From the IMG/VR virus record IMGVR_UViG_3300050343_000001, positions 1 through 59,555 of that record: a stretch of 59,555 nucleotides of DNA. One strand, given 5' to 3'. The first letter of the stretch is position 1. Each line of letters starts with the position of its first letter. Both the position numbers and the translations under genes were made by a program. This DNA is from a virus. Under the pieces are notes generated by a model that worked only from the letters and a program-made list of their open reading frames with translations, ran no database searches and was not told the DNA's origin. Shown here piece by piece: positions 1 through 54,858 of the stretch.

Positions 1-1
1 G

Positions 2-289: not shown

Positions 290-313
290 TGACTCACTAC
301 TACGGAGAACAAC

Positions 314-1849: not shown

Positions 1850-1900
1850 CTACCATACAGTCGTATATGACAGTAAAACAAGTATAAAACGGAGAACAAC

Positions 1901-2517: not shown

Positions 2518-2520
2518 TAC

Positions 2521-3399: not shown

Positions 3400-3429
3400 G
3401 GGGTCAGTCACCTAGTTTAACGATAGGCA

Positions 3430-3478
3430 GTCGCGGCGGGTTTGTTACCCTTTCGAGAGCCCGCCGCGACATATTTTT
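3430..3478 (+). terminator. Intrinsic terminator after SSB-like gene
   Basis: A perfect 11-bp inverted repeat, GTCGCGGCGGG (3430-3440) and CCCGCCGCGAC (3460-3470), is followed by ATATTTTT. It separates the helicase/SSB group from the primase gene. The 19-base loop is long, so partial read-through into the primase is possible. Confidence 0.8.
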
Positions 3479-3490
3479 GGAGCAGAAACA

Positions 3491-6316: not shown

Positions 6317-6518
6317 CGATTTAAACCCTGATGGGTTACGAATCACTGTTGACTGGGAGGACATGAGTGTGGGGGCATCCATATTCGTGCCTTGTGTCAA
6401 CACTGAGAAGGGTAAAGAGCAATTAAATAAGGTCGCAAAACGTAAAGAATGGAAGTTTGATACGCAAACCTGCATAGAAGACGGTAAATTAGGTTTACGT
6501 ACGTGGCGTACTGTGTAA
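6288..6518 (+). CDS. Conserved small phage protein, unknown function
   Basis: The 76-residue product begins MMDQKVLKVDDLNP. It contains ITVDWEDM and SIFVPCVNTEKG, suggesting a small mixed alpha/beta domain. The start at 6288 is preferred over 6267 because GGAG lies 8 bases upstream. It overlaps the end of the primase gene, so expression is likely coupled, and it is the last gene of the rightward arm. The TRTW-like C-terminus (LGLRTWRTV) and the size resemble accessory proteins found next to marine phage primases, but no function is known to me. Confidence 0.75.
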   Translation: MMDQKVLKVDDLNPDGLRITVDWEDMSVGASIFVPCVNTEKGKEQLNKVAKRKEWKFDTQTCIEDGKLGLRTWRTV

Positions 6519-6569: not shown

Positions 6570-6595
6570 GCCCCTGCTTCGGCGGGGGCTTTTTT
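6570..6595 (+). terminator. Strong intrinsic terminator ending the rightward arm
   Basis: Stem GCCCCTGC / GCGGGGGC (8 bp with one G-T pair), TTCG tetraloop and a run of six T. It lies where the two arms converge and overlaps the stop of the leftward giant gene. Read leftward it lacks a U-tract, so it acts mainly on rightward transcripts. Confidence 0.9.
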
Positions 6596-12500: not shown

Positions 12501-13205
12501 AAACCCACCTAGCAATAACTTGTCTGCAACACCTTCAAGTGCCGCTTGGCCGAAAGTAGCGGTCAGCGCATCGCCTACATCGACTCTATCTTTTGTACCT
12601 CTAGCTACTTCGTCCTCTTGACGTTGTATGTTGTTACCAAACAGAATCGGAGCGGTTACAAGACCAGCAGCTGTAGCACCAACAACAAACGGCGCAGCTG
12701 CACCCAAAACAGGAGCCGCAACAGGAGCCGCTAGAGTACCTAACGCCGCCGCGCCAAGACCAAGACCTAGTTGTGTACCTTGCTCACCAATAGTTTCACC
12801 TGCGAATGTCAACGCCGAGCCAAAACCATCAACGTCTGTAGACTGTAGTCGCTTAGGTTGTTCAAGGGACAAGAGCCCAAGTTGTTGGCCAGCACGTTCT
12901 TCTACACCGGTACCATACTTCTCAAGAAACCCAAGGCCAGTCTGCTCTCCGATAGTGCCGATAGTCTCACCAACAGCTTGCTTAACTTGTTGGAAACCCC
13001 TAGCACCGCCACGACCTAACGCAGTGCCATCGTCCACGTATAAGTCTTCGCCGTACCTATCTTTGTATGCTTTAAGGTCTTCTTCTCTATCACGCTGAAG
13101 AATCTGCGCTATTTTAGCAAACTCTACGTCTGAAGGATTTTCTCCGGATATAGTAAAGTCGTAACCTTTACCCGTTTGGGAGTCTACGTATTGGAAAATA
13201 CCCAT
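6594..13205 (-). CDS. Giant internal virion protein with zincin-like protease motif
   Basis: The 2203-residue product is by far the largest in the genome and the last of the late operon. N-terminal 200 residues: YVDSQTGKGYDF start, then two Ala/Gly-rich hydrophobic stretches (about 150-195) that could insert in a membrane. Middle: long charged or disordered segments. HEMAH at residues 1078-1082 with a downstream VAEAF Glu (about 1122) fits a gluzincin-type metalloprotease. C-terminal third: helical, with FKRFAVSRYYFMAHLVDQAL and a hydrophobic segment (TGSLAGVAGLPLMGAAAAIY), like the large polyvalent PLxRFG-type proteins of podoviruses. It is probably packed in the capsid and ejected with DNA to form a channel. 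The protease role is inferred from the motif only. Confidence 0.85.
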   Translation of the reverse strand: MGIFQYVDSQTGKGYDFTISGENPSDVEFAKIAQILQRDREEDLKAYKDRYGEDLYVDDGTALGRGGARGFQQVKQAVGETIGTIGEQTGLGFLEKYGTGVEERAGQQLGLLSLEQPKRLQSTDVDGFGSALTFAGETIGEQGTQLGLGLGAAALGTLAAPVAAPVLGAAAPFVVGATAAGLVTAPILFGNNIQRQEDEVARGTKDRVDVGDALTATFGQAALEGVADKLLLGGFKLLKPVGSTKEGWKGVLTRTGSRATGGAGTESLTEVGQQMLERAQAGLPIDSDDAIAEYREAAIAGGLIGGGTRATLGAFGEGKSIIPTRTVTPVTEEIIVTDELFDELGIIKSSSLRKNKNKNILGLPITDPKVKEQLEEYLKNSRTSDDTKAKVRALLGDTDGQSELGNERAGGGVSGSGDGVANVGDESGKRGNSGKPTASNLGPVGTDLSNVDESGGPAGPEFNTLEEAAAQQEDDPVSRFRTLKKGRSVEKGSIYDLYPDATTIRDKKYGKGAGIQPRVSRTIYMPYEEAAKVGGLFQNEEMPVQFTTIGDNKAKLVHLKSYGTGKNQKKAGSDASETVTFEVQPRVGLIPVEILNDKNNAPGGGRNIHFGNEIVEVDIQDKAEDVAPEAVEALTEQVDEQVVEGVDEDSPRRVMPVLNEGTALAPTPPNEIQGEAVSQEQLQATEDTRNQEAQAKLDALFEDGRRSEGLQEYHDTQIDAQAAPEVTTAVDKEGIIELLTTPDTALKGNKPAQKAKLFFKRFRRPVDALAEIGSQATIGATQTIKKDYTPAQFAFYNGITQPAAMNARRWVHENMSDSAIQEMIRARRMANRDTSKFNPSDAYIGVVNAAKSIQKSIDRTFKKQQNKDAKEIAAAERLKVANERINKTLALDSSMASDVKTTTLKSGEELFRVTTPVRGRTAFESYLIGTGLQLRENNKVSTVLPQTTRIVYDPEAKSVISGEEIMGLYDGYAHSRDLGFLLADPVHGLDQALLPSIQNALQRGDLQFALNAIAATNPVERVRQIAGKLAETIGTTQVQVVDDLSTMVGRKAAGMFRPATNTVFIDANNGMNVHTVLHEMAHAVTSASLANPNLPEVKQLQALLEAARAQLGDVYGTKNLDEFVAEAFGNPEFQRALALMSVDGGKMAGWKKFASAVMRAFRKMLGFKPKPPESPLDDIDRLVMGLLTPAPDTRAVPDMLLLGRTAKGATELLRKHVTAVPLGDKSRYEQARDFISENTPRKLKQWVLAVQPVNNLARLAEDRIPFANELNVLIDQTSGALRKSFEPVDVLYNDYRAYRNANPEGYNRMQALMNRATQDEVDPARPQSTYDKYWLSYYDMVTERTVMKSFVDVKKRNAEIKKLNDDLKQKFGGQDMPRSKAKKAGEPSDEKKALWKTLNDEYELLGKQGQDLYKITRDMGEAAQDRIMPAIRARIASLGIDAEAQKTAFEKLSDLLHAQGGIIRPYFKLSRDGDFRLSYNAPDPLRNGGLEVFTEYYTSEKDMLQAQENVVKYLESIGRGDEVSNIEVGKREAKRDYGKAPTSSFVFEVLQALQVAGVDPQAIDRIIDLSLDAIPERSFMQSFRSRKERSEGKRGILGALGDVTPSGMPGMEVDPAETFRDNFRSIEKQLVQLEYGAKIQVFRNKLTDGNYLKRLDTMDIAEKLDQVAEFAQAPSMARWSQIATSMGFGWTMGANISSAFNIMFDIPMAVHPYLAGEYGGGKATSAISRATKLFMGSPSTKMITVMGADGKPEIREVQLGKHNKGFDNYNFDDPNTPEDILRYKTLVEQAGARGMFNQSIDQEHVDLTNRKDVLAKMNQVSGFLVHHGERFGRQISLMAAYDLELNNRTDNGKKPATQADYDAAAQKAMKTTELTLGSTASAGRPVWAQKPVGNVAFLFKRFAVSRYYFMAHLVDQALAEADPDIRKIARKQLAYFMVTTGSLAGVAGLPLMGAAAAIYDMFADDDEDDFEAMMRKMLPGTLYDGLANELLGVDIASRVSMNSLLYRQPFIDKDQSRFYTLIEQLGGPVVGVGLSVERGYDLLQEGEVQRGLEAMAPAAMRNISKFQRFSTEGANTMRGNPIVDDINPYNSFMQLLGFAPADYVENLKINSSERRRQNAVDERRRKLLRRHNMAKTQGDREAVRKIREDIREFNQSLPAEYKEDAIDGKALKKSLSGFLTTTGKMVNGIVYTDAMRKSFEEYE

Positions 13206-26947: not shown

Positions 26948-28138
26948 TTATGTTAATCCAAGTCCTTTAGTGTTTTGAGAGAACGAACCCTCCCACCAGT
27001 TTTTATACAACGCTTCAAAATGTTCGGTCATAACAGGGGGCAGTTTAAATACGTCAGAATACGAACCTGTACTACTAGGCTCTTTCGAGTTTTTAATCAT
27101 GTAATCCAAGCTAGGGTCTGCATTTTCCATACATTTTATACCTCTTTCTTTAGCGTAGGACCAAAAGTCACTTTTGAAAGAAGACCCCGATGCGTAGTGC
27201 AACATTATAATGTTTTCGCAGGCGTCTAAATTAGCGTGATATCTAAGGTTCGATAGCTCTAAAGAAGTATTCCCAAACCATCTTTGAACCGCCATAGTAT
27301 TAACATTGTCTACAGTAGCGAACGAAGTAGCTTCAAGAGGTTCTAAAAAGAAAGAAGCATTGCCGTTATACACAATATTGTCTTTAAAATTACTCTTACG
27401 CCTATAGTTAGAAAAGCTAAATGAGTTAGTATCCCCATTAGGCACTAAGTTATATTCGTTTAATATAACCTCTACATCCGCTTTAACTTCTTCTAAAGTA
27501 TTTATATCTTTATTGTACATATACCCTACAGAGCAGCGGTTTTTAAGGGGTATACCAAACACCCAACCATAAGGTCTTGCGATAGCTAATGTCTCACTAA
27601 ACCGTGGATATTCCCAAGAACACTGTGTTACATGTACGGCGTTTACAGGAATATACTTTGACATCTCAAAGTCTTCAAAAGAGGAAGGTCTGCCAGAACA
27701 GTCAATAATATAGTCTGCATCTATGTCATCTGAAGATACGTTAGCTTCTTTTATAGACACTGAATCTTTTAACTTATCATAGACAAAACCCTGCAATAGA
27801 GTTGCATCAAAATGCAAAGCCGTTGAAGGGCTCGGGAAGTCATGGATAAAAGGCTTTCGTTTACTCCCCCAACCTTCTTTATAGATACCTGTCTTTACAG
27901 TCGCGCCTACAGAATCAAAATGTCTTGGCGAAAAGTTTAAAGAATCGTTAAGCCTATTAGGTAGATTTAAAGTTGACCCTTCGCCTACAGCCTGCGGTTT
28001 TATAGAAGGGTCAAAGTACCACTCTATTTCGTCCGCATTTATCCATCTTTTGCAGTGCGCGGCTGTCATACATCCCGCTGTACCTTTACCTATTATAGCA
28101 ACCTTCAATCCATCATCCCCGCGCCAAGGAGCATCCAT
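26948..28138 (-). CDS. Flavin-dependent (tryptophan-type) halogenase
   Basis: The 396-residue product has the FAD-binding GKGTAG (residues 17-22), a GEGST flavin-site segment (52-56), Lys82 in GATVKTGIYKEGW at the place of the catalytic Lys of PrnA-type halogenases, and PLEATS with Glu269 at the place of the catalytic Glu. The halogenase-specific WxWxIP reads GWVFGIP (W192, F194), the second Trp replaced by Phe. The ATG at 28138 has GGGAGTGGGA before it; the GTG at 28153 is less likely. It halogenates an unknown substrate. It lies inside the tail-fibre module and overlaps the assembly-chaperone gene, so it is made late. Confidence 0.87.
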   Translation of the reverse strand: MDAPWRGDDGLKVAIIGKGTAGCMTAAHCKRWINADEIEWYFDPSIKPQAVGEGSTLNLPNRLNDSLNFSPRHFDSVGATVKTGIYKEGWGSKRKPFIHDFPSPSTALHFDATLLQGFVYDKLKDSVSIKEANVSSDDIDADYIIDCSGRPSSFEDFEMSKYIPVNAVHVTQCSWEYPRFSETLAIARPYGWVFGIPLKNRCSVGYMYNKDINTLEEVKADVEVILNEYNLVPNGDTNSFSFSNYRRKSNFKDNIVYNGNASFFLEPLEATSFATVDNVNTMAVQRWFGNTSLELSNLRYHANLDACENIIMLHYASGSSFKSDFWSYAKERGIKCMENADPSLDYMIKNSKEPSSTGSYSDVFKLPPVMTEHFEALYKNWWEGSFSQNTKGLGLT

Positions 28139-28377
28139 TTTTCCCACTCCCACTCTGTGAAATAATCATCATCTAGGCCATTAAGGAAATTAAGTTGGTT
28201 TTGGGGTATATCCCTTAGTTTTTGACGGAACTGATTCCATCGCTCATCAGGGTTTCTATCAGGCATGATAATCGCATCTGTTTTTTTCAGCATATTATTT
28301 CTATTAACACGAAACTGTGCGGTAAGATTGTTAATCTCTGTTTCAGTGAGGTTCCAAACATTGTCAAAGTCGCTCAT
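28105..28377 (-). CDS. Tail fibre assembly chaperone-like protein
   Basis: The 90-residue product contains RNPDERWNQFRQKLRDIPQ, the W..xRQ.LRDIP signature of the phage tail assembly chaperone (APC) family. The N-terminus is a helix (LTETEINNLTAQFRVNRN) and the C-terminus is aromatic and acidic (DDYFTEWEWEKWM). It immediately follows a large fibre gene and overlaps the halogenase gene by 34 bases. In this family the protein helps fold or attach the fibre. Translational coupling with the halogenase is likely. Confidence 0.78.
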   Translation of the reverse strand: MSDFDNVWNLTETEINNLTAQFRVNRNNMLKKTDAIIMPDRNPDERWNQFRQKLRDIPQNQLNFLNGLDDDYFTEWEWEKWMLLGAGMMD

Positions 28378-44749: not shown

Positions 44750-44961
44750 TCCAGTTTGATAGGAGACGTTTTTATATACGAGGGGGTGGGGTAACTTAGC
44801 GCGCCGAAAACGCTAGGTAGGGGGGTCTGTTTTGATACCCGTGACGATACTTTGTGGAGTCAGATTCGTTTTTGGAAAAACGTAAAATATTTGTGAATAA
44901 TAGTATTATATAGGCGCGCGGACAGGTAGCCGTACTGGGGGGTGGGGGGTAGGTGGGGTAT
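44750..44961. other. Non-coding divergent control region with G-runs
   Basis: This stretch between the two arms holds no gene. The plus strand has runs of G (5, 4 and 6 near 44782-44828; 6, 6 and 4 at 44937-44958), able in principle to form G-quadruplex structures. It is followed by the first GTAGTT palindrome. An AT-rich piece (44885-44912, with TAGTATTATATAG) lies between the G-rich blocks. Confidence 0.6.
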
Positions 44962-44976
44962 GTAGTTTAAAACTAC
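44962..44976. repeat. Palindrome copy 1: GTAGTTTAAAACTAC
   Basis: A perfect 7+1+7 inverted repeat that belongs to the family GTAGTT-N3-AACTAC found nine times between 44.96 and 54.6 kb. This copy ends 12 bp upstream of the -35 box of the early promoter at 44989, a usual place for an activator or repressor site. Confidence 0.75.
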
Positions 44977-44988
44977 ACTCGCGATACT

Positions 44989-45017
44989 GTGACATAACAC
45001 ACACAAACAAGTATACT
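44989..45017 (+). promoter_or_regulatory. Early promoter (GTGACA-N17-TATACT)
   Basis: A -35 box GTGACA (44989-44994) and -10 box TATACT (45012-45017), 17 bp apart, lie 65 bp before the first rightward gene. A GTAGTT palindrome lies immediately upstream, which suggests regulated early transcription. Confidence 0.7.
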
Positions 45018-45081
45018 GGTGTTATCAAAAGCGAAACATGATGTGACGCTACGATAAAATATTCTATGAAAGGAATATAAA

Positions 45082-45690
45082 ATGACTAAAACTAAAACAA
45101 ACCAAAAGATCAATAAATCAAACGTGGTGTTAGGAGAAAAGTTTCTAACACTATTACAAGAGGATGGCGACGCGCAAACAGCTGGCAAGCTAAAGCGCGG
45201 CGAGCTTATAACTCAGGCCATGGACGATGGTATCGACTTTACAAGTAAGACAATGTCTAAAGAGCAAATAATAGAAGTTAAAGCTCTTATTGCTTTACGC
45301 CATCCTATAGCGGCTCAGGAATTACTAAAAATGGGCGCGGCAAAGGCAGATGGCGCAATCGCGGCAGACCATGATGGTAATCGTTTTACTAGCCAAGGTA
45401 GAGCCAAAAATTGGAACTACTGGAATAGTAGACAAAAAGACATCTTTAAGAAATTAGGTGAAGCGGTTGTTGCTCGCAATATCAAAAAGGCTCGTATCGC
45501 AGAAGGTGGCAACCAATCAAGAGGTCTAGTCGAGCGTCTTGCTACTGAATGTAACAAGCTTTTCAACGCGGTTGTTAGGGCAGACGTTGACACATTGCCA
45601 GATGATTTCGATACCTTGGAAGTAATTGCAGGTTTCAAGACCATCGCAAGAAATTCTGGATTTCAATTAGTAAAGAAATCTAAAAAGTAA
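45082..45690 (+). CDS. First early protein, unknown function
   Basis: The 202-residue product is basic at both ends (MTKTKTNQKINKSN; LVKKSKK) with a mostly helical body: GEKFLTLLQEDGDAQTAGKL, MSKEQIIEVKALIALRHPIA, SRQKDIFKKLGEAVVARNIK. GNRFTSQGRAKNWNYWNSRQ is the most distinctive stretch. RBS AAAGGAATATAAA before ATG. It is the first gene behind the early promoter and the first palindrome, so it could be an early host-takeover or regulatory protein and a candidate binder of the palindromes. I recognise no family. Confidence 0.78.
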   Translation: MTKTKTNQKINKSNVVLGEKFLTLLQEDGDAQTAGKLKRGELITQAMDDGIDFTSKTMSKEQIIEVKALIALRHPIAAQELLKMGAAKADGAIAADHDGNRFTSQGRAKNWNYWNSRQKDIFKKLGEAVVARNIKKARIAEGGNQSRGLVERLATECNKLFNAVVRADVDTLPDDFDTLEVIAGFKTIARNSGFQLVKKSKK

Positions 45691-45700
45691 AACTTAACTT

Positions 45701-45720
45701 GGAGCGGCCGCGGCCGCTCC
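45701..45720. promoter_or_regulatory. 20-bp perfect GC palindrome after first early gene
   Basis: The sequence GGAGCGGCCG followed by its mirror CGGCCGCTCC is a 20-bp perfect palindrome holding a NotI-type octamer. It starts 10 bases after the stop of the upstream gene and has no U-tract, so it would be an mRNA-stabilising or attenuating hairpin rather than a classical terminator, or a protein-binding site. Confidence 0.65.
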
Positions 45721-45751
45721 TTACTAACATTCAAATACAGGAAACAAAACA

Positions 45752-46012
45752 ATGTTAAAAGAATTACCTTATACTGTCGGAGATCAAGACCTAATTGACG
45801 AAAGATGGCATTGGAACCGCATCGGTAAAGTAATGATCGGTGTTATGATCAAATGGGATGACGAAAAGTTTGATAGGTTTTTTAATGCAATCAAACCGCA
45901 ATTACCGCCAGACGAAGTCGAAGAAATTTTAAATCGTCGTGCATGGTATACTTCGTGCCATGATATATTAAAACAACCTAGCCAAATGTCTTTTACATTT
46001 ATGCCAAAATAA
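45752..46012 (+). CDS. Second early protein, unknown function
   Basis: The 86-residue product begins MLKELPYTVGDQDLIDERWH and continues with WNRIGKVMIGVMIKWDDEKF, RFFNAIKPQLPPDEVEEILN and RRAWYTSCHDILKQPSQM. It looks like a small globular helical protein with many aromatic residues; no family recognised. AGGA about 9 bases before ATG. Followed directly by a strong terminator, so the early unit consists of two genes only. Confidence 0.75.
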   Translation: MLKELPYTVGDQDLIDERWHWNRIGKVMIGVMIKWDDEKFDRFFNAIKPQLPPDEVEEILNRRAWYTSCHDILKQPSQMSFTFMPK

Positions 46013-46018
46013 CTACAC

Positions 46019-46049
46019 GCGCCGAGCCGAAAGGTTCGGCGCTTTTTTT
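46019..46049 (+). terminator. Terminator of the two-gene early unit
   Basis: A 10-bp stem (GCGCCGAGCC / GGTTCGGCGC, one G-T pair) with a GAAA tetraloop is followed by seven T. It isolates the first early unit from the replication-arm operon. Confidence 0.92.
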
Positions 46050-46132
46050 GTGTCTTTTTTTGCGGAAGCCAGTTCTCTGAATAGCTTCGCGTCACAGAGC
46101 AATCGGCTTTGTTGCGATGCTTACTAAAACAT

Positions 46133-46147
46133 GTAGTTACAAACTAC
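46133..46147. repeat. Palindrome copy 2: GTAGTTACAAACTAC
   Basis: Member of the GTAGTT-N3-AACTAC family, with arms of 6 bp. It is followed after 10 bp by copy 2 of the 23-bp repeat. Confidence 0.75.
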
Positions 46148-46249
46148 ACTGTGGAAACCAGTTCTCTGAGTAGCTTCGCGGATCATGTGTACTTCGTGTG
46201 TACATCTCCTCGTATGTTTATGTATGTTAACTCATCGGGCCCGTTACGT

Positions 46250-46264
46250 GTAGTTTTAAACTAC
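46250..46264. repeat. Palindrome copy 3: GTAGTTTTAAACTAC
   Basis: Perfect 7+1+7 member of the family. It is followed after 10 bp by copy 3 of the 23-bp repeat and lies 117 bp from copy 2. Confidence 0.75.
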
Positions 46265-46329
46265 GAGACGTATACCAGTTCTCTAAGTAGCTTCGCGGAG
46301 CAACATGTACGCAGATGCCTTGTTTTTAT

Positions 46330-46605
46330 AATGTTCCATTATAATGTTCCTAATGTTCCACAAGAAGTTCCATAATAGGCAAAAATAAGTCATTGATTTT
46401 ATTACAATGTTCCTAATGTTCCTAATGTTCCCTATAAAAAAATATAGCACTACGTACGCGACCCCCTCTATAATGAAAAATCAACGGAACATTTGGAACA
46501 TTGGAACATTCCAATGATTTCAAGGACTTACAGACACCCTAAATGGAACATTATAAAACCCGATTGGAACATTGTAATCATATCAATAACTTAGCACGGA
46601 ACATT
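46330..46605. repeat. Twelve iterons in two mirrored blocks, putative ori core
   Basis: Forward AATGTTCC at 46330, 46343, 46352, 46406, 46415 and 46424 (first base given). The last three are spaced exactly 9 bp. Reverse GGAACATT at 46486, 46495, 46503, 46545, 46566 and 46598. Between them is an AT-rich core (46432-46485) containing CTATAAAAAAATATAG. Six against six in mirror orientation around an AT-rich centre fits a bidirectional replication origin bound by an initiator, or a large operator. No DnaA box was seen. Confidence 0.82.
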
Positions 46606-46618
46606 ACCTTTTAACCCT

Positions 46619-46633
46619 GTAGTTTAAAACTAC
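46619..46633. repeat. Palindrome copy 4: GTAGTTTAAAACTAC
   Basis: Identical to copy 1. It closes the iteron region and lies 58 bp upstream of the -35 box of the strong promoter at 46692. Confidence 0.75.
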
Positions 46634-46691
46634 GTCACACAACCTCGCAATACCTGACGATACCTGACACAACAGGACACGCTCAGAAAGC

Positions 46692-46720
46692 TTGACATTG
46701 GCCGTATACTATGGTATAGT
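46692..46720 (+). promoter_or_regulatory. Strong promoter of the replication arm (TTGACA-N17-TATAGT)
   Basis: Perfect -35 TTGACA (46692-46697), 17-bp spacer and -10 TATAGT (46715-46720), the best promoter of the window. The 5' leader of about 105 bases before the first gene contains palindrome copy 5. It probably drives the long rightward operon. Confidence 0.88.
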
Positions 46721-46782
46721 AGTATATGTTCTGGAGTGATAGTCAACATATCGGCTCTCTCTTCAGACTGTATCTACTTCGT

Positions 46783-46797
46783 GTAGTTACTAACTAC
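46783..46797. repeat. Palindrome copy 5: GTAGTTACTAACTAC
   Basis: Perfect 7+1+7 member of the family, in the transcribed leader 62 bp after the -10 box and 37 bp before the first ATG. It could act as a roadblock operator or as an RNA hairpin. Confidence 0.75.
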
Positions 46798-46834
46798 TAA
46801 TCAAAACTAACTAATCAAACCAATGGAGATTATC

Positions 46835-47047
46835 ATGCCTATCAAAGCTCACTGCATATCATGCGACCAACCCTACTCACAACGCCGAAAAGAATTGGGA
46901 TACAACTTCTGCCTAGACTGTGGCGAATACCAAGCGACTAAGCAACGCGCAGGTTGGTGTGTCGCACCTATCGCGCACAAGCAAGGCGCAACACTTGTCA
47001 CCAACTTCAACGACCTCAAAGGTCTCAACAAATACACGGGAGAGTAA
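46835..47047 (+). CDS. Small zinc-ribbon protein
   Basis: The 70-residue product begins MPIKAHCISCDQPYSQRRKE and has two CxxC pairs (CISC and CLDC, 20 residues apart) that would bind one zinc ion. The start at 46835 has GGAG 8 bases before; the upstream ATG at 46823 lies on top of that signal. First gene after the strong promoter. Small zinc ribbons of this kind are common in early regions of marine phages; DNA, RNA or protein binding cannot be decided. Confidence 0.78.
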   Translation: MPIKAHCISCDQPYSQRRKELGYNFCLDCGEYQATKQRAGWCVAPIAHKQGATLVTNFNDLKGLNKYTGE

Positions 47048-47048
47048 G

Positions 47049-47297
47049 ATGAAGTTCGAAAACTACAGCGTGGTGAAATGCCCTATGGGTATATCTATCA
47101 AACCTAACAATGGTGACAGCGATTTAGAAGTAACCTTAACTATAGAAAATGATACTCTACACGTAACTTTGCACGCACACGACAATGATTGGTGTGGCTC
47201 TGACCACATCGTAAGTGAAGCTCGATACCCAATCAAACATTACTGTGAATGTCACGCAACATACCAAGACTGTGGCTATCAGGATTGTTGCAGATGA
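47049..47297 (+). CDS. Small Cys/His-rich protein
   Basis: The 82-residue product begins MKFENYSVVKCPMGISIKPN, has a beta-like middle (SDLEVTLTIENDTLHVTLHA) and a C-terminal Cys/His cluster (HYCECHATYQDCGYQDCCR) that could bind metal. GGGAGAG precedes the ATG at 47049 by 6 bases. It overlaps the next gene by 4 bases (ATGA). No known family. Confidence 0.75.
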   Translation: MKFENYSVVKCPMGISIKPNNGDSDLEVTLTIENDTLHVTLHAHDNDWCGSDHIVSEARYPIKHYCECHATYQDCGYQDCCR

Positions 47298-47524
47298 TGA
47301 AATTCTGGACAGTACTTCTACTGACGTATCACGCAGGGTCTGACGATGTCGAACCTATGACTTCAAGTATCCTGTTACCTTCGATGGAAATATGTGGCGA
47401 TGTGATGGACGACTTCTATCCAACTATATTCGCGCACTATCCTGACAGCATGGCTCAATGCCTAGAAACCGCCGAGGCTTCAACAACTATGACAAGCCCA
47501 ATGCCAAAACTAAGACCGTTCTAA
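47294..47524 (+). CDS. Small exported-type protein
   Basis: The 76-residue product begins MMKFWTVLLLTYHAGSDDVE, a short hydrophobic N-terminus that may be a signal peptide, followed by SMEICGDVMDDFYPTIFAHY and SMAQCLETAEAS, with two Cys. Similar small proteins with a signal-like start occur in early operons of marine phages. Starts by ATGA overlap. Possible role in the periplasm, for example superinfection exclusion; not demonstrable from sequence. Confidence 0.7.
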   Translation: MMKFWTVLLLTYHAGSDDVEPMTSSILLPSMEICGDVMDDFYPTIFAHYPDSMAQCLETAEASTTMTSPMPKLRPF

Positions 47525-47535
47525 AGGAGAACATT

Positions 47536-48453
47536 ATGAACAACGTACACCAACTAACCGCCGAGTGTAGTCAACAACTACACACAGATGCACCAACACT
47601 TGGCTCATCTGCAATGCTCGTAGAAGTCAACATCTCTACATGGGCAGGTCGAAAGAAAGACAAGCGGGCTTCCGCTGATGTCGCTTCCGCGAACCACGCC
47701 GACAAAGAGGTTGCTAACGTGATCAAGAAGTTACTCGCTAACTCTGACACACTCAAAGCAATACAGACACATGTCACCGCGGCTCGCAACATGCACTCGA
47801 ACATGACGATGCCTTGGTCTAACTCTGGGCTACGTCTGTTACCTACAGCGCAATACTTCAACTACAGCGAAGCTATGTCGCAAATGCAGAATGAGTTCGA
47901 AGCACTCAAGACTAAGTTTCTAAATTCGTACAACGACGAAGTAATAAACGTACAGCTAAAGCTCGGCTCGTTGTTCTCGCGTGACGACTATCCCACGATT
48001 GAAACACTCGACAGTAAGTTTGCTTTCCGTATGAACTACATGCCATTGCCAGATGTCGGTGACTTCCGTGTCGATGTGGGTAATGAAGCACTACTCGAAA
48101 TCAAGCAGAAGTATGAGGACTTCTATTCCAAACAATACAATACAGCTATGAATGACGTGTGGACACGTTTGCACAAGGCACTGACAAATATGTCTGAGCG
48201 CCTAGACTACAGCGGTAAAGAGGACAAGAAAGTATTTCGTGATACGCTCGTTGGTAATGTCACTGACATGATAGAACTACTACGTGTGTGTAATGTTACG
48301 CAGTCTACCCAGATGTCCGACATGGCAAACAAACTCGAAGATGCAATGTCTGGTGTATCCGCCGTGGTATTGCGTGACGACAATACGTTCCGCGTCAGAA
48401 CCAAAGCGAAGGTCGACGACATTATCAAATCACTACCATCATTAGATATATAA
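47536..48453 (+). CDS. DUF3150-like partner of MoxR/VWA module
   Basis: The 305-residue product begins MNNVHQLTAECSQQLHTDAP. It is mostly helical, with DVASANHADKEVANVIKKLL, ARNMHSNMTMPWSNSGLRLL, AMSQMQNEFEALKTKFLNSY and a C-terminal CNVTQSTQMSDMANKLEDAM. The pattern of W..S...RLLP...Y..Y and long helices fits the DUF3150 family (from memory), which in phages accompanies MoxR-type ATPases. RBS AAAGGAGAACATT before ATG at 47536. It probably is the substrate-linking or structural subunit of the downstream ATPase/VWA pair. Confidence 0.78.
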   Translation: MNNVHQLTAECSQQLHTDAPTLGSSAMLVEVNISTWAGRKKDKRASADVASANHADKEVANVIKKLLANSDTLKAIQTHVTAARNMHSNMTMPWSNSGLRLLPTAQYFNYSEAMSQMQNEFEALKTKFLNSYNDEVINVQLKLGSLFSRDDYPTIETLDSKFAFRMNYMPLPDVGDFRVDVGNEALLEIKQKYEDFYSKQYNTAMNDVWTRLHKALTNMSERLDYSGKEDKKVFRDTLVGNVTDMIELLRVCNVTQSTQMSDMANKLEDAMSGVSAVVLRDDNTFRVRTKAKVDDIIKSLPSLDI

Positions 48454-48471
48454 ACAAGAAGGAAGAACAAC

Positions 48472-49566
48472 ATGACTAATCAAACACACGCAATGTATCA
48501 CATAGATTTACCACAATGCGTCGATCTTATCGTAGGCGTAGCTAAAATACGAACCGTACTCGCACAGGGTCATATGGGTAGTGGCAAATCATCTATGTTG
48601 GATATGGTAGCAGAAAGACTACCGAACCATCGCAAAGTATATTTCGACGCAACCACAAAAGACCTCGGTGACATTATGATACCGTCTTTGCAGTCTATAC
48701 AAGAAGAAGGTTGCGTCCGTATGATTCCTCACGAAGAACTCGGTCTACATATAGACGGGCCGATTATTCTTATGCTCGACGAGTATGGCAAGGCGAACCC
48801 TGCAGTGAAGACCGCTATGCTACGTCTGATGTTGGAACGTAAAATGGGTAGTTACAAACTACACCCTGACAGTGTTGTCTTTGCTACAACGAACATGGGT
48901 AGCGAAGGAGTTGGTGACATACTACCACCACACGCACGTAACCGTATAACTGTAGTACAGATCAAAAAGACTAATAACATGGATTTGATTGAATACGGTA
49001 TCAACAAGAATTGGGATCACAGCCTACTTGGTTGGCTCAAAGACAACCCACACTTGATGCACTCGTTTGAAGATGTGAAAGACCCAGACGAAAACCCATA
49101 TATCTTCCATCCAAAAGCGCAACGTGCCGCCTTTGTTACAGGTCGCTCACTCGAAGCCGCGTCTGACATACTCAAAGCACGAGCAGGGTTTGACGATATT
49201 ACTCTGACCGCCGCATTGATAGGTACGATTGGTGATCGCGGTGCGATGGACTTGATGGCGTTTGTGTCACTATCCGATCAGCTACCTACCTTGCAAGCTA
49301 TCAAAGACAATCCAAAGAGTGCCAAAGTACCTGACAGCGCCGCCGCCATATGTATGGTTGTGTATAGAACTCTGTCCGCGTTGGACAAAGACTGGCTCAA
49401 CAGCTGGATGGATTACTTGCCGCGCCTCGATACCGAAGCACAAGCTATGTTCGCTAATGGTGTACGCGCACCGAAGTATTCAAAGCAGTCAATGGTTATG
49501 ACTAACAAGAAGTTCACCGAGTGGGCTATGAAGAACAACCACCTATACACAGCAGATAAAATATAA
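48472..49566 (+). CDS. MoxR-like AAA+ ATPase
   Basis: The 364-residue product has Walker A GHMGSGKSSML (Lys39), Walker B IILMLDEYGKAN (Asp103, Glu104), a sensor-1-like VVFATTNMGSEGVGD and arginine-containing HARNRITVVQ. It is a MoxR/CbbQ-type remodelling ATPase acting with a VWA protein, here encoded three genes downstream. In bacteria such pairs mature or insert metal cofactors or remodel complexes (RavA-ViaA, CobS-CobT). The substrate in the phage is unknown. It carries palindrome copy 6 inside its coding sequence. Confidence 0.88.
   Translation: MTNQTHAMYHIDLPQCVDLIVGVAKIRTVLAQGHMGSGKSSMLDMVAERLPNHRKVYFDATTKDLGDIMIPSLQSIQEEGCVRMIPHEELGLHIDGPIILMLDEYGKANPAVKTAMLRLMLERKMGSYKLHPDSVVFATTNMGSEGVGDILPPHARNRITVVQIKKTNNMDLIEYGINKNWDHSLLGWLKDNPHLMHSFEDVKDPDENPYIFHPKAQRAAFVTGRSLEAASDILKARAGFDDITLTAALIGTIGDRGAMDLMAFVSLSDQLPTLQAIKDNPKSAKVPDSAAAICMVVYRTLSALDKDWLNSWMDYLPRLDTEAQAMFANGVRAPKYSKQSMVMTNKKFTEWAMKNNHLYTADKI
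48848..48862. repeat. Palindrome copy 6, inside the MoxR gene
   Basis: GTAGTTACAAACTAC lies within codons for Gly-Ser-Tyr-Lys-Leu, identical to copies 2 and 9. Its presence in coding sequence argues for selection on the DNA or RNA itself, or chance; see findings. Confidence 0.65.
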
Positions 49567-49577
49567 GGAGAGATATA

Positions 49578-49940
49578 ATGGGTAAACGATGGACAGATAA
49601 AGAGGACGGTATCCTCGAAACACTACGCGATGGTGGCATGACCTTTGAGGAGATTGCTTCCGTAATGGGTCGCACAAAGCAAGCAGTACAGCAACGTGCG
49701 CATATGTTGAAACGTAACGAGCCTACGTTTCGTGAAGTTGTGGATACAGCTTTTGAGAAGCACGGTATCGAGTTCGGTGAACCTGATCAGGAGCTTAAAG
49801 AGCTATTACCCGGAATCAATGCCTTATTCGGTGAACCTGATAAGCCGTTGCCGAGAATACAATACATGCTCAGTCAAATGGAAAGAGACTTAAAGCCGAA
49901 GCCGCAGTGGTGGAAAGCTATGATGTGGTGGAGGAAATAA
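49578..49940 (+). CDS. Myb/SANT-like DNA-binding protein
   Basis: The 120-residue product begins MGKRWTDKEDGILETLRDGG and continues MTFEEIASVMGRTKQAVQQR, the W..E(x)D.L..L...G....IA..MGRT..AV..R pattern of a Myb/SANT-like or GcrA-like helix-turn-helix (residues 3-45). The C-terminal part is helical and Trp-rich (QWWKAMMWWRK). It could bind DNA at repeated sites such as the palindromes. It lies between the MoxR and VWA genes, so may be co-expressed with them. RBS AAGGAGAGATATA before ATG. Confidence 0.8.
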   Translation: MGKRWTDKEDGILETLRDGGMTFEEIASVMGRTKQAVQQRAHMLKRNEPTFREVVDTAFEKHGIEFGEPDQELKELLPGINALFGEPDKPLPRIQYMLSQMERDLKPKPQWWKAMMWWRK

Positions 49941-49941
49941 C

Positions 49942-50223
49942 ATGAAATATTGGATCGCAAATATTGATGAACGTAATGGGGAGTTTGAGTACGAGCAAAC
50001 TATAATATTCACAGCCGCAACCAAAGCGGAAGCTGACGATACGCATGAGTTTTATGCAAGTACATGGTACGGCGAAGACAATATGCGGTGGGACGAAGAC
50101 GATAATTGTTGGTGGAACGAACCCGTTGCTGTCACTGAAGGTCGTATGACCGAGATTGATGAACACACGTTCGATCAAATACGTAAACATGGTCTGCCAG
50201 ACCTAACAAGAAAGGGAGCATAA
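49942..50223 (+). CDS. Acidic small protein, unknown
   Basis: The 93-residue product begins MKYWIANIDERNGEFEYEQT and shows a strand-helix pattern (IIFTAATKAEADDTHEFYAS) plus a Trp/Asp-rich middle (WYGEDNMRWDEDDNCWWNEP). Strongly acidic; such proteins may mimic DNA or inhibit host factors, but no known family is visible. It starts 1 base after the previous stop and is followed immediately by the VWA gene. Confidence 0.72.
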   Translation: MKYWIANIDERNGEFEYEQTIIFTAATKAEADDTHEFYASTWYGEDNMRWDEDDNCWWNEPVAVTEGRMTEIDEHTFDQIRKHGLPDLTRKGA

Positions 50224-51495
50224 ATGCTAGCAATCAAACAACTAACTGAGGAGCAACGACTAACAAAAGCCGTTGTATCTATTATGAGTAGCCCGAAGTA
50301 TGTCGCACTCGCAGGGGTGCTAATGATCGGGGAGCGTTCTGTAGTGGACGACCCGAGCGTACCGACGGCATGTACCAATGGACGTGACGAGTTCTACGGA
50401 CGTGAGTTTGTAAGTAAGCTCAACGATGCCGAGCTTAGATTTCTGGTGTTGCACGAAGTGTACCACAAGTTGTTCCGTCACTTGACCACATGGAAACATC
50501 TATACATGCAAGACGCATACCTTGCGAACGTAGCGTGTGACTACGTGATCAACCTAAAGATTGTAGATGATAACTACCAAGATGGGTTTGCTACTATGAC
50601 AGGCGAACTTTCAAAAGGTTGCTATGATCGTAAGTATGTGGGTATGGACACCGCGCAGGTGTACAACTTGCTACGTAAAGACCAACCGCAAGGCGGCGCG
50701 GGTCGTGGTGGTGTTATCGTAATCGGTGATCCCGAAGATGGTGATGGTACACCGCAGAACGGTAGTGGCTCACTACCTGATGGACAAGAACCATTCGATG
50801 CACATGATTGGGAAGGCGCACAAGAAATGACCGCCGACGAACAACGTGATCTTGCCAGAGAGATTGACGAGGCAGTACGTCAAGGTGCATTGGTTGCAGG
50901 GAAGATGGGCAGTGGTGGTGATCGTGACCTAGAAGCATTGCTAGAACCACAAGTCGATTGGCGTGAAGTGTTGCGTGAGTTTGTGCAGACTACATGTACA
51001 GGCAGTGACTACTCTACATACCGCAGACCTAATCGTAGGTATCTGAGTAGTGGTATCTACATGCCAAGTGGTGTCAGTGAACAGGTCGGGGAACTGGTGG
51101 TCGCAATCGACACGTCTGGATCAATCGGTCAGGAAGAAATCACCGCGTTTCTTTCCGAGGTCAAAGCAATATGTGACACGGTACACCCAGATAAAGTACG
51201 TCTGTTGTATTGGGACACACAGATATGTTGTGACGAGACGTATGAAACGCACGAACTCGATACACTCGTACAATCTACTAAGCCGAAAGGCGGTGGTGGT
51301 ACAGATGTAGAATGTGTGACTGAGTACATTCGTGAAGAAAGCATCAACGCGCAAGCATGTATCGTGATTACTGATGGCGACCTATACAGTGGTTGGGGTC
51401 AGTGGACTATGCCTGTGTTGTGGTGCGTTATCGACAACAAGCACAAAGTGCCAGACGTAGGTAAATGTGTACACATAAAATCGAGGGACATGTAA
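50224..51495 (+). CDS. VWA-domain metallopeptidase-like protein (DUF2201)
   Basis: The 423-residue product has an N-terminal zinc motif HEVYHKLF (His77, Glu78, His81), a Gly-rich linker region (about 150-180) and a C-terminal VWA-like domain with a MIDAS site: DTSGSIG (Asp296, Ser298, Ser300), KGGGGTDVECV and VITDGDLYSG. This is the DUF2201 architecture. It is the likely partner of the MoxR ATPase. The HExxH suggests peptidase ancestry; activity is unproven. RBS AAGGGAGCATAA overlapping the previous stop. Confidence 0.88.
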   Translation: MLAIKQLTEEQRLTKAVVSIMSSPKYVALAGVLMIGERSVVDDPSVPTACTNGRDEFYGREFVSKLNDAELRFLVLHEVYHKLFRHLTTWKHLYMQDAYLANVACDYVINLKIVDDNYQDGFATMTGELSKGCYDRKYVGMDTAQVYNLLRKDQPQGGAGRGGVIVIGDPEDGDGTPQNGSGSLPDGQEPFDAHDWEGAQEMTADEQRDLAREIDEAVRQGALVAGKMGSGGDRDLEALLEPQVDWREVLREFVQTTCTGSDYSTYRRPNRRYLSSGIYMPSGVSEQVGELVVAIDTSGSIGQEEITAFLSEVKAICDTVHPDKVRLLYWDTQICCDETYETHELDTLVQSTKPKGGGGTDVECVTEYIREESINAQACIVITDGDLYSGWGQWTMPVLWCVIDNKHKVPDVGKCVHIKSRDM

Positions 51496-51947
51496 TGGGG
51501 TATCGTAGTGAAGTGCATATTGCTGTAGCCTTTGACAGCAAGAAAAACATGGACGAAGTCATAGCGGCGTACGCCTTGAACATAAATGTAGAGAAGCACA
51601 ACTTAGTAAATGACTGGGTCATAAAAGACGACAACATTCTGTATTTCCACGCAGACCATGTAAAGTGGTACGACAACTACGAGTGGGTGCAGGGCTACGA
51701 GTATATGTTCGAGCTTGTGAAGGAGTTTTGTGAGGCGCGAGGTTTTTCTTCCGCCTTCCGCCTCTTGCGTGTTGGTGAAAGCGACGACGATGTAGAGGAT
51801 AGGCACGATTGGTTTGATGGCGATTATGAACATAACGCCGACGACGATCCCCTCTTTGAAAATGAAGACGACGATACAGACACCACGTTGATGGACAAGC
51901 TAATGCTAAATATGGAGATTGTGAGAAAGGTAGAGGTAACACTATGA
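51495..51947 (+). CDS. Conserved acidic phage protein (MGYRSEV)
   Basis: The 150-residue product begins MGYRSEVHIAVAFDSKKNMD, a start seen in many phage early proteins. It has a strand-rich first half (DDNILYFHADHVKWYDNYEW) and a strongly acidic C-terminal part (FDGDYEHNADDDPLFENEDD). The ATG at 51495 overlaps the VWA stop (TAATG) and has GAGGGA 7 bases before. Function unknown. Confidence 0.78.
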   Translation: MGYRSEVHIAVAFDSKKNMDEVIAAYALNINVEKHNLVNDWVIKDDNILYFHADHVKWYDNYEWVQGYEYMFELVKEFCEARGFSSAFRLLRVGESDDDVEDRHDWFDGDYEHNADDDPLFENEDDDTDTTLMDKLMLNMEIVRKVEVTL

Positions 51948-52165
51948 GTAAGATTGGCAACTATGTAGTAGGACTACAGGAGCAAGAGATTTTCATCGAA
52001 TGTCCTGAGTGCAAAGACACAGACCGACAGGGCAAAGTTACAGGCGAGGAGTTCAAGTGGACAGGTGACATGTACGAGCCGTTTGAAACATGGGTTGATT
52101 GCGAAAACTGTAATGGACTTGGGGAGATCGAACGTGACTTCGACGACGATTCGTGTGGGCAATAA
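51944..52165 (+). CDS. Small DnaJ-type zinc-finger protein
   Basis: The 73-residue product has two CxxCxG-like pairs (ECPECKDT and DCENCNGLGE, about 38 residues apart), as in half of the DnaJ Cys-rich domain, binding one zinc ion. It starts in an ATGA overlap with the previous gene and ends in a stem-loop that includes its stop codon. The C-terminus is acidic (RDFDDDSCGQ). Protein-protein contact or chaperone interaction is possible. Confidence 0.75.
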   Translation: MSKIGNYVVGLQEQEIFIECPECKDTDRQGKVTGEEFKWTGDMYEPFETWVDCENCNGLGEIERDFDDDSCGQ

Positions 52166-52175
52166 ATGCCCACGC
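52153..52175 (+). promoter_or_regulatory. Intercistronic stem-loop over a stop codon
   Basis: GTGGGCA (52155-52161) pairs with TGCCCAC (52167-52173) around ATAAA, with two further pairs outside. The TAA stop of the upstream gene lies at the loop. No T-run follows, so it is more likely an mRNA-stability or processing element than a terminator. Confidence 0.55.
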
Positions 52176-52222
52176 AGATGCTTTAAACTAAACAATAACA
52201 TTTAACAACAGGATAAAAACAA

Positions 52223-53308
52223 ATGGCACTAACATATTCATCATTCAGTAGCTTTGACGACGTAGTTTATAACTACGAAAACACAAAGCCAATGGGCGGT
52301 AGCACTAACAAGGGTAAAGATATCAGACCCATAGGTGATCGCAAACGTAAGTACGAACGTATCGTAAAGATCAGCAACAACTGCTACGCACTATCAGATG
52401 GCTTTCACTTTGGCGACGCACACTTTAATTGGGGTTGGGGCTATACAGCTTCTGCTGAGTATGTACCTACACTAAAGGACATGGAGAAGTATGCACCTAT
52501 CATATGGCGCAAGAAACGTGATGGCACAGAACAAGTCACAATACGCAACGGGTATGGAGATCATGCACACAACTCACGTTATGCTTTTATAAACAGACAC
52601 ACACCGAGAGGTTTGGGGTTCACTATTGCTAGCGGCAAACAGTACATAACTAAGACAATGGGTAGGTATCCTGACCATAGGCATGATGAACGGTACTATC
52701 TAGCCAAGACCCATACCGCACCGCGTGTTATCTACGACCACATAAAAGATCAGCTGAACGCTAGTTGGTATCAAGAGAACGCTAAGAAGTGGGTCATGTT
52801 ACACGACGACAACTCTGCCTTAGTGTTCAACAAAGCCGAAAGTAAAGATCGGTTCTCTGGTATTGAGTGGGTACATGTTGAGGGGACAGGACGCACACTG
52901 CCGAAAGCGCCGCGTGTGAACATAGAACTCAAAGCCAAGTACAAGGACTCAATCAAAAAGTTTTTCGAATGGGGTATGACTATGTCACCGCTAATGCCAT
53001 TGGAGGACAACGAGTACCTACACAAACACAATCAAGACTTGGTTGAAGCCTATGGTCACGTAAGGGGCAACTATTGGCGTAAGGTAAACGCAAGTATAGG
53101 ACGTGAAATTGTACGAGGCGAAAGACACCCTGTACGACTAGCGTTTTGGGTAGAGTTTGCCAAACAATGCTACGCGCCAGACGAGCAGAGTTGGAGTTTC
53201 AACAGTACGCCGTTGCTGACTAAAATAAAAACCAAAGAAGATATTTCCCATGTACGGGCATGCTTCAACAGATTTATCAACACAGAACTTGGGTTCGTAA
53301 CAAAGTAA
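52223..53308 (+). CDS. Conserved phage protein, unknown (361 aa)
   Basis: The 361-residue product begins MALTYSSFSSFDDVVYNYEN and has many Tyr/His/Asn-rich beta-like stretches (FHFGDAHFNWGWGYTASAEY; NGYGDHAHNSRYAFINRHTP) and a helical C-terminal half (KDSIKKFFEWGMTMSPLMPL). It is a soluble protein with no signal and no recognised catalytic motif. A similar series is known to me from other marine phages as hypothetical. Palindrome copy 7 lies near its 5' end. Confidence 0.78.
   Translation: MALTYSSFSSFDDVVYNYENTKPMGGSTNKGKDIRPIGDRKRKYERIVKISNNCYALSDGFHFGDAHFNWGWGYTASAEYVPTLKDMEKYAPIIWRKKRDGTEQVTIRNGYGDHAHNSRYAFINRHTPRGLGFTIASGKQYITKTMGRYPDHRHDERYYLAKTHTAPRVIYDHIKDQLNASWYQENAKKWVMLHDDNSALVFNKAESKDRFSGIEWVHVEGTGRTLPKAPRVNIELKAKYKDSIKKFFEWGMTMSPLMPLEDNEYLHKHNQDLVEAYGHVRGNYWRKVNASIGREIVRGERHPVRLAFWVEFAKQCYAPDEQSWSFNSTPLLTKIKTKEDISHVRACFNRFINTELGFVTK
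52262..52276. repeat. Palindrome copy 7, in early codons
   Basis: GTAGTTTATAACTAC, a GTAGTT-N3-AACTAC member within codons 14-18, 40 bp after the ATG. It may act as an internal operator. Confidence 0.65.
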
Positions 53309-53319
53309 GGAAAACAACT

Positions 53320-54210
53320 ATGAGTGACTTAGAATTAAAATTAGTAAGAGATTTAGAAAAACCAAACCCAGATGATAAGGTGTATACACCTAATCTAGAT
53401 GTGCAGATGATGGCAGATGCACTAACCAAAAAGGTTCGTGGTTACAAGACCGCGCCTAAAAGTTGGGAATCCATATGGGTTTACAGGCCGCAAGATACCT
53501 ACGCTATGGGTTGGATAAGATACGCAGACGTGTTTGAAGGCGGTACAGGTGACAAGCGGCATGCTGTTTATTCGCCTAACATACAGAACGGCAAGTACTC
53601 GTATGGGGATAATTGCTTTATGTCTTCAGCACTGCATTTCAACAAGGGGTTACTTAACGCATGTAAATACCTACGCCCACCAACCGCAAAGCAAGTTGTG
53701 GAACAAGTGCAAAGGGATTTTGCTAGAGGTGTGTCTCGTTCGTTGGACGAAGTAAAGACCAAGGCGCACAAGATAACGAACAAGATCGACACCGATGTAT
53801 TTGGTAGGACACGCCTAAACACTGCACCTCTTAAAAGAGAACTCGCTAACATACTAAAGTCAGACTATGAGTTTCTCGACAAAGAACTTGAAGTGCAACT
53901 AACCGAAGCCTTTGAAGCGGTTAAGGAGCTACATGATGGCAGAGATATACATGATAGAGACCACACATTTATTGAGGTCATACAAGCTCAAGGTGCTAAT
54001 CTATATCGAGGCTTCAAGAGAGTAAGCCAAAGCTACTCACTGTTTCGTCACGACGATAGCGCTGAGAACAAGATAGTGTACACACAGGAAGAACTACCAG
54101 AGAACCTACTCGGTGCGATGTCTGTGCTATCTATGGTCGAGGAAGATCAGTATGTTGCAGGTGTTGGGTATCGTGCAGGGGCAAATATGTTCTACATTAA
54201 AGGCGAGTGA
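53320..54210 (+). CDS. Conserved phage protein, unknown (296 aa)
   Basis: The 296-residue product begins MSDLELKLVRDLEKPNPDDK. It shows a mixed N-terminal half (PKSWESIWVYRPQDTYAMGW, GDKRHAVYSPNIQNGKYSYG) and a helical C-terminal half (KQVVEQVQRDFARGVSRSLD, ELEVQLTEAFEAVKELHDGR). The Tyr-rich first half resembles that of the preceding protein, which suggests a paralogous or partner pair. The ATG at 53320 has AAGGA 8 bases before. It overlaps the next gene by 4 bases (GTGA). Function unknown. Confidence 0.77.
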   Translation: MSDLELKLVRDLEKPNPDDKVYTPNLDVQMMADALTKKVRGYKTAPKSWESIWVYRPQDTYAMGWIRYADVFEGGTGDKRHAVYSPNIQNGKYSYGDNCFMSSALHFNKGLLNACKYLRPPTAKQVVEQVQRDFARGVSRSLDEVKTKAHKITNKIDTDVFGRTRLNTAPLKRELANILKSDYEFLDKELEVQLTEAFEAVKELHDGRDIHDRDHTFIEVIQAQGANLYRGFKRVSQSYSLFRHDDSAENKIVYTQEELPENLLGAMSVLSMVEEDQYVAGVGYRAGANMFYIKGE

Positions 54211-54470
54211 GTGTGGGAACAACTGACACTATCACGTACCGCGTGACAATACATCCTACTACAAATAAGGTTAATGTAATGTCTTTTGATCTAGACGCTA
54301 TTGACGCGACAGGTTTAGGAGTATATGACACTATAAACCAAACACCTAAATGGATCAGGGAGCGCATTGCTACACTTATGCTTGTTGATCCTACACCACC
54401 GACTGAACCAATAGAAGGTGTAGGTCATAGGATCGACAAAACTACTTATTGGATTTACGCTGATCGGTAG
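54207..54470 (+). CDS. Small protein starting with GTG
   Basis: The 87-residue product starts at a GTG that overlaps the previous stop (GTGA), with AAGGCG just before. It reads MSVGTTDTITYRVTIHPTTN and ends GVGHRIDKTTYWIYADR, a small beta-rich domain. The stop TAG lies inside palindrome copy 8. No known family. Confidence 0.65.
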   Translation: MSVGTTDTITYRVTIHPTTNKVNVMSFDLDAIDATGLGVYDTINQTPKWIRERIATLMLVDPTPPTEPIEGVGHRIDKTTYWIYADR

Positions 54471-54481
54471 TTACTAACTAC
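54467..54481. repeat. Palindrome copy 8 over a stop codon
   Basis: GTAGTTACTAACTAC, identical to copy 5. The TAG stop of the upstream gene is part of it. It lies 116 bp before copy 9, close to the 117 bp between copies 2 and 3. The 54482-54549 stretch contains a 7-bp hairpin GGGCGGA / TCTGCCC. Confidence 0.72.
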
Positions 54482-54549
54482 TATTTTAACTTTGGGGGGC
54501 GGACATCTGCCCTCCATCGAAGCCAGTTATTTTTACATGGAGACTATCA

Positions 54550-54858
54550 ATGGCAACAACACCAGAAGCTAAAGTAAAGAAGGTAGTTACAAACTACTTA
54601 AAGAAGATGGGAGCATACTACTTCTACCCTGTTACGGGTGGATTTGGACGAAGCGGCGTACCTGATATAGTCGCATGTTACAAAGGGTTGTTCCTTGGTA
54701 TTGAATGTAAAGCAGGGAAGGGGAAAACTACCGCACTACAACAAAAGAACCTAGACGATATTAAAACAGCAGGGGGTTTTGATTGGGTCGTAAATGAAAC
54801 AAACATGCACCAAACAGAAACACAGATTAAGTATTGGGCATCAACACAACAGGAATAA
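54550..54858 (+). CDS. VRR-NUC nuclease (Holliday junction resolvase-like)
   Basis: The 102-residue product is a stand-alone VRR-NUC/PD-(D/E)XK nuclease. It has the motif SGVPDIVACYKGLFLGIECK (Asp, then Glu-x-Lys) and TALQQKNLDDIKTAGG. It probably resolves branched DNA before packaging or during recombination. Palindrome copy 9 lies in its 5' coding part. GGAG precedes the ATG by 8 bases (CATGGAGACTATCA). Confidence 0.88.
   Translation: MATTPEAKVKKVVTNYLKKMGAYYFYPVTGGFGRSGVPDIVACYKGLFLGIECKAGKGKTTALQQKNLDDIKTAGGFDWVVNETNMHQTETQIKYWASTQQE
54583..54597. repeat. Palindrome copy 9, inside the VRR-NUC gene
   Basis: GTAGTTACAAACTAC, identical to copies 2 and 6, lies 33 bp after the start codon. 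Confidence 0.65.

Follow-up and report, generated by a model that had tools for sequence, protein, structure and literature searches.

The lambda-type cI repressors recognize palindromic operators as dimers, and these regulators diverge together with their sites; in lambda, the operators are few and are located at two promoters. The C1 repressor of phage P1, a plasmid prophage, has many dispersed operators, which are asymmetric. The alphaproteobacterial LexA sites are of the direct-repeat type, GTTC-N7-GTTC, and are read by the host LexA. Cluster A mycobacteriophages are temperate, with an integrase or parABS, and their bound repressor stops elongation and confers superinfection immunity. For the evolution of immunity groups, how specificity shifts jointly in a regulator and in all of its sites is, to our knowledge, not settled. 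Cluster A mycobacteriophages, such as L5 and TipsytheTRex, carry many repressor sites per genome, located in promoters and short intergenic spaces, with one site in the repressor's own leader; the sequences of the sites and repressors diverge together, and the same repressor blocks both initiation and elongation (PMC6550527, PMC9283540). These sites, the stoperators, are asymmetric 13-mers, mostly oriented with transcription, and are recognized by a monomeric repressor that contains an HTH (PMC9283540, PMC6550527). A limited literature search found no description of a palindrome/regulator system of the kind reported below.

Palindromic words in the early arm

The DNA analyzed here (the window) corresponds to an entire IMG/VR virus record, 59,555 bases long. 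Protein family matches mark it as a tailed phage: the leftward arm has the portal, structural, and tail genes, together with a terminase-like gene, and the rightward arm encodes an ATPase, a DNA polymerase, an exonuclease, a helicase, and a primase. The structural genes surround an unusual cargo gene (26948-28153, minus strand) with a PHROG match annotated as tryptophan halogenase, and the C-terminal part of a 2203-aa protein (6594-13205, minus strand) matches DarB-like antirestriction proteins. Searches of 19 records of 41 to 70 kb returned no match to the integrase/resolvase families PF00589 and PF00239. No relatives of the ATPase were found in bacterial genome contigs and no close relative of the DNA polymerase on plasmids.

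Nine perfect copies of the palindrome GTAGTT-N3-AACTAC, listed for the rightward arm in the first-pass annotation, are all present there with the same positions and spacers. A pattern search allowing up to two mismatches yielded 17 matches against 3.7 expected, a number reached by 0 of 100 dinucleotide shuffles, and the reversed, non-complemented control pattern had 0 matches in the window. The leftward arm has no perfect copy, as the annotation had it; however, positions 1-6500, also called empty, contain at 286 a site of the type found in relatives, GTAGTG-N3-CACTAC. Similarly, the count of nine holds for perfect copies, but the full set also includes a mixed site at 47567 and sites of the relatives' (old) type at 50762 and 286; about a dozen copies of one short word are spread over the early genes. 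Imperfect copies found at positions 50530, 50563, and 56223 do not switch between types and look like coincidences of protein-coding sequence.

Palindrome 1 (44962-44976, GTAGTT TAA AACTAC) is 105 bp before the ATG at 45082, in the leader that belongs to the first rightward gene. Palindromes 2 (46133-46147, spacer ACA) and 3 (46250-46264, spacer TTA) are found in a non-coding leader, each followed by a CCAGTTCTCT repeat. Palindrome 4 (46619-46633, spacer TAA) and palindrome 5 (46783-46797, spacer ACT; the zinc-ribbon gene, 46823/46835-47047, has this site in its 5' leader) flank a strong sigma-70-type promoter, TTGACA-N17-TATAGT (46692-46720, plus strand; 11 of 12), palindrome 4 being on its upstream side. 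They are 164 bp apart, and the same distance is seen in the related loci L028, L032, and L087. The mixed site, GTAGTCAACAACTAC (47567-47581), is ∼31 nt into its gene if the start is at 47536. Palindrome 6 (48848-48862, spacer ACA) is within the ATPase gene (48472-49566), and the unconverted old-type site GTAGTGGCTCACTAC (50762-50776) is within the gene at 50224-51495. Palindrome 7 (52262-52276, spacer TAT) starts 39 nt into the gene at 52223-53308, palindrome 8 (54467-54481, spacer ACT) overlaps the stop codon of the gene at 54207-54470, and palindrome 9 (54583-54597, spacer ACA) is 33 nt into the gene at 54550-54858. The old-type site GTAGTGACTCACTAC (286-300) directly precedes the helicase gene (314), and in L006, L021/L022, and L044 this position is occupied by the lineage's own word.

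The leader region contains several other elements. Twelve AATGTTCC words, six per strand and in two facing groups, are packed into positions 46330-46605, with 1.8 expected in the whole window. Similar arrays are present in L087, L032, L028, L197, and L203, whose palindromes differ, and the array does not switch with the word; it is iteron-like and possibly marks a replication origin. The CCAGTTCTCTRARTAGCTTCGCG repeat is found in three near-identical copies (46069-46091, 46158-46180, and 46275-46297), two of them directly after palindromes 2 and 3, and related CCAGT elements come after palindromes in other lineages. A G-rich stretch, GGGGGGTGGGGGGTAGGTGGGG (44936-44960), which might form a quadruplex, lies upstream of palindrome 1, and its position is conserved, together with a AATAGTATTATATAG element, across lineages.

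The loci of relatives (designated by L numbers) were fetched with three queries: the ATPase, the first early protein, and its zinc-ribbon neighbor. In close relatives, GTAG-N7-CTAC is enriched too, and the motif positions are conserved, but the two inner base pairs change together: most of these phages have TG-CA in place of TT-AA, with GTAGTG-N3-CACTAC at matching places. A de novo palindrome scan, made without knowledge of the motif, revealed in most loci a single dominant perfect palindrome that differs between lineages. The words found (named by one arm and spacer) are GTAGTT-N3, GTAGTG-N3, GTTAGTG-N3, TTTAGGGA-N2, GTTAGGGA, TTCGGGCA-N2, GTTAGC-N6, TAGCCA-N1, GTTATACG-N3, GTATGGG-N4, GTTAGTC-N4, GTACGTCA-N1, GTATGCG-N3, TTATGC-N5, and GTTGGTCA-N2. 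The wider relatives have at least 14 different words in 8 to 14 copies per phage, restricted to the early rightward arm, and the fetched loci together hold 651 unique perfect sites. Near-complete contigs (61 to 65 kb) carry one word 8 to 11 times in the early arm and 0 to 1 copy of the other words searched for. Orthologous intergenic gaps hold one word or the other, and the ribosome-binding site beside it is conserved. No such palindromes were seen in the stretches read of KPP25 and Rollin, the named relatives by DNA polymerase, or in HTVC023P, HTVC027P, 023Pt_psg01, and DSL-LC04 (50 kb each).

The gene that tracks the word

The first-pass annotation viewed the palindromes as a possible operator set of a regulator and named three candidate binders. 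Comparison of the relatives supports the operator reading, and the candidate that tracks the motif across them is the first early protein (45082). The Myb-like protein (49578) is not the determinant, as it is missing in many site-bearing phages and is 82% identical in the window and L006 despite their different site types. Homologs of the HTH protein (2287) are 44 to 47% identical in phages with other word types. The zinc ribbon (46823) and the second gene (45752) were also considered as binders and rejected, since neither tracks the word.

The first rightward gene (gene 1; 45082-45690, plus strand) is fast-evolving and codes for a 202-aa protein of an orphan all-helical family, the proposed cognate DNA-binding regulator. 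Its homologs are recognizable in loci with the TT-AA word, and a diverged version occupies the same place in other loci. No Pfam model matched the family, sequence searches gave no PHROG or PDB match of note, no HTH was detected in the protein, and fold searches with two gene-1 models matched no solved (PDB) or viral fold. AlphaFold models of two subfamilies have the same order of helices, and profile comparison joins eight subfamilies, leaving the regulators of L111, L138, and L206 (single members) unlinked to the rest.

The association of gene 1 with the word was analyzed in 74 non-redundant versions of the protein, clustered at 40% identity; a word was typed in 69 of the loci, with the spacing variants of TTAGGG treated as a single word. 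Among the typed loci, two different words never occur within the same cluster (23 clusters). A point on the other side is that TTCGGGC and TTAGGG each occur with several clusters of the regulator. Gene-1 identity predicts a shared word with an AUC of 0.974, versus 0.926 for gene 47458, 0.896 for gene 50224, 0.877 for the zinc ribbon, and 0.793 for the ATPase. In every band of ATPase identity, the median gene-1 identity is much higher in same-word than in different-word pairs; at ATPase identities of 90% or more, these medians are 74% and 15%, respectively. Phages that use different words and have 92 to 99% identical ATPases encode gene-1 versions that look unrelated. L062 and L069 have 99% identical ATPases and 11% identical regulators, with the words TTAGGG and TTCGGGC, respectively. 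The L059 and L064 loci are 97% identical in terminase, 92% in ATPase, and 95% in polymerase; in this pair and in L028/L032, all sizeable rightward genes in the compared arm except gene 1 have a detectable counterpart. It is highly likely, judging from these sequence comparisons, that gene 1 and the word form a regulator-site pair, and gene 1 very probably encodes the protein that reads the word.

A separate case is L048, whose regulator is 43% identical to that of the window and whose sites are imperfect, such as GTAGTTTTGTACTAC and GTAGTCATAAACTAC; it may represent another intermediate specificity.

Site replacement between close relatives

The window phage and L006 have 98% identical ATPases and different site types (the regulator type of L006 is deduced from its sites, and its contig does not include the leader). 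The four distal sites of the window at 48848, 52262, 54467, and 54583 correspond in L006 to GTAGTTACTCACTAC, GTAGTGGCTCACTAC, GTAGTGACACACTAC, and GTAGTGACTAACTAC, respectively. Differences between the two phages fall on 11 of the 60 positions in these sites versus 12 of the 240 flank positions (p = 0.0016). A label shuffle, which ignores relatedness, was not taken as evidence by itself. At site 48848, the flanks show 0 differences in 60 positions, and the change in the site costs an amino acid replacement (S to K). At site 54583, both changes are synonymous, and the encoded VVTNY is kept (codons read from the sequence).

The window has four converted distal sites, two with the old word (286 and 50762), and the mixed one at 47567, where L032 has GTAGTGAACCACTAC. 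L032 and L087 combine the new regulator and new leader sites with distal sites that are mostly old or half-changed, one of them being converted in L087. The window phage is partway through a switch of words, with L032, L087, and the window as apparent intermediate stages that can be seen in nature. The simplest history suggested by these sequences is that a regulator was imported with its leader sites and the distal sites were then rewritten by point mutation.

Possible mode of action and relation to known systems

On balance, the arrangement is probably explained by a dimer of the gene-1 protein that binds the dispersed palindromes and represses the early/middle arm in a stoperator-like manner, the gene and its sites co-diversifying. 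The gene-1 protein would be made first and, as a symmetric dimer, would bind ∼8 to 14 sites over the early/middle arm, including those in its own leader and on both sides of the promoter at 46692-46720. At promoter sites, it would block initiation, with autorepression in its own leader, and at sites between or just inside genes, it would obstruct RNA polymerase as an elongation roadblock. In this reading, gene 1 moves between phages along with the leader sites, and the distal sites are later rewritten by point mutation. Such a protein might have an immunity-like effect on co-infecting relatives.

The placement of the sites bears on the sign of this regulation. Simple scans of the arm for promoters and terminators showed no excess over shuffles, so promoter calls other than that at 46692-46720 are weak. 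Many distal sites have no recognizable promoter nearby, and the sites elsewhere are found between stop codons and ribosome-binding sites or just within genes. In most lineages, site 1 is upstream of the apparent gene-1 promoter, which would fit an activator as well, and two sites come after the terminator behind gene 2. The gene-1 protein could then be the cognate binder but act as an activator or antiterminator of early/middle transcription, with the sites marking its loading or action. This is unlikely: in some GTTAGTG-type phages, a site occupies the spacer that separates the −35-like from the −10-like element in the apparent promoter of gene 1, which is the position of a repressor operator, and activation is awkward to reconcile with sites in coding sequence and just before the ribosome-binding sites of operon genes.

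The suggestion in the first-pass annotation of a DNA-organizing or partition-like role found no support. In that case, the protein would be an architectural dimer whose effects on transcription are secondary, and the palindromes would organize the phage DNA, whether for condensation, partition, replication, or packaging. About ten dispersed sites and an iteron-like array between palindromes 3 and 4 would suit such a role, but the restriction of the sites to the early arm and gene boundaries, the constancy of the iteron words across phages with differing palindromes, and the empty integrase/resolvase search of 19 records make it improbable.

A slightly less probable possibility still is that the word is read by another protein of the exchanged leader cassette, or by a host protein, with gene 1 merely linked to it. 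Because gene 1 travels with the leader sites in exchanges, linkage accounts for part of the gene-word association. However, when L028/L027 are compared with L032, the second gene is 72% identical and the zinc-ribbon gene 90% identical though the leader word differs, and distal sites over several kilobases track gene 1 rather than their own flanks. The alphaproteobacterial LexA is not matched, as the annotation had recognized: the site repeats GTAGTT in inverted orientation, and near-identical phages carry different versions of it.

Translational control, by binding of the gene-1 protein to RNA hairpins near translation starts, would suit the many sites that are no more than ∼40 nt from a start codon and come immediately before a ribosome-binding site, but is very improbable, given that several words are symmetric to within the central 0 to 2 bases, too tight for an RNA loop, and that spacers in both orientations (read about equally in both directions, with CC 20 versus GG 19 in TTCGGGCA-N2, although some others are skewed) and the lack of a G-U excess among single mismatches (14 G-U versus 23 A-C) indicate sites acting as DNA. 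An Rfam search of the leader gave nothing near the gathering score.

A broader proposal can be put forward tentatively: a so far unrecognized, orphan class of phage DNA-binding proteins may sort phages in which no integrase was detected into immunity-like types, with at least 14 recognition groups, each consisting of one regulator and about ten palindromes, that change through regulator swaps and stepwise distal rewriting and are upheld by interference during co-infection. Such phages would be a new, testable case of viruses that split into distinct recognition groups by means of a protein that resembles nothing known. At least 14 words are matched to this new family of probable sequence-specific DNA-binding proteins, so that its recognition code can be tested directly. 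The dispersed-palindrome arrangement itself seems to be wider than the gene-1 family. Planktothrix phage Pag-Yong1 (L216) has 14 copies of GGTTCAG-N1-CTGAACC, most of which lie in the interval from a stop codon to a ribosome-binding site, and Rhizobium phage RHph_TM3_14A (L090) has 12 copies of GTTACC-N6-GGTAAC, with none expected by chance in either case; the first genes of these two phages show no profile similarity to the gene-1 family.

Compared with the known repressors, the window system differs from lambda cI in its 8 to 14 dispersed sites and in a protein that looks unrelated by sequence and fold search. It is similar to P1 C1 in having one regulator and many dispersed sites, but its sites are palindromic, and no integration function and no close DNA polymerase relative on plasmids were seen. 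The closest parallels are with cluster A: there are 8 to 14 copies per phage, many of them between a stop codon and a ribosome-binding site, the regulator has a site in its own leader, and the regulator and sites co-diversify. In contrast to the cluster A sites, those described here are perfect palindromes of about 13 to 19 bp with spacers in both orientations; the protein has no likeness, by sequence or PDB fold, to repressors of the L5 gp71 type, which have a stoperator domain and an N-terminal HTH. The 19 records searched yielded no integrase. By analogy, the window system would work like stoperators, but it is not classed as a member of that group, because the symmetry of its sites and its protein family differ.
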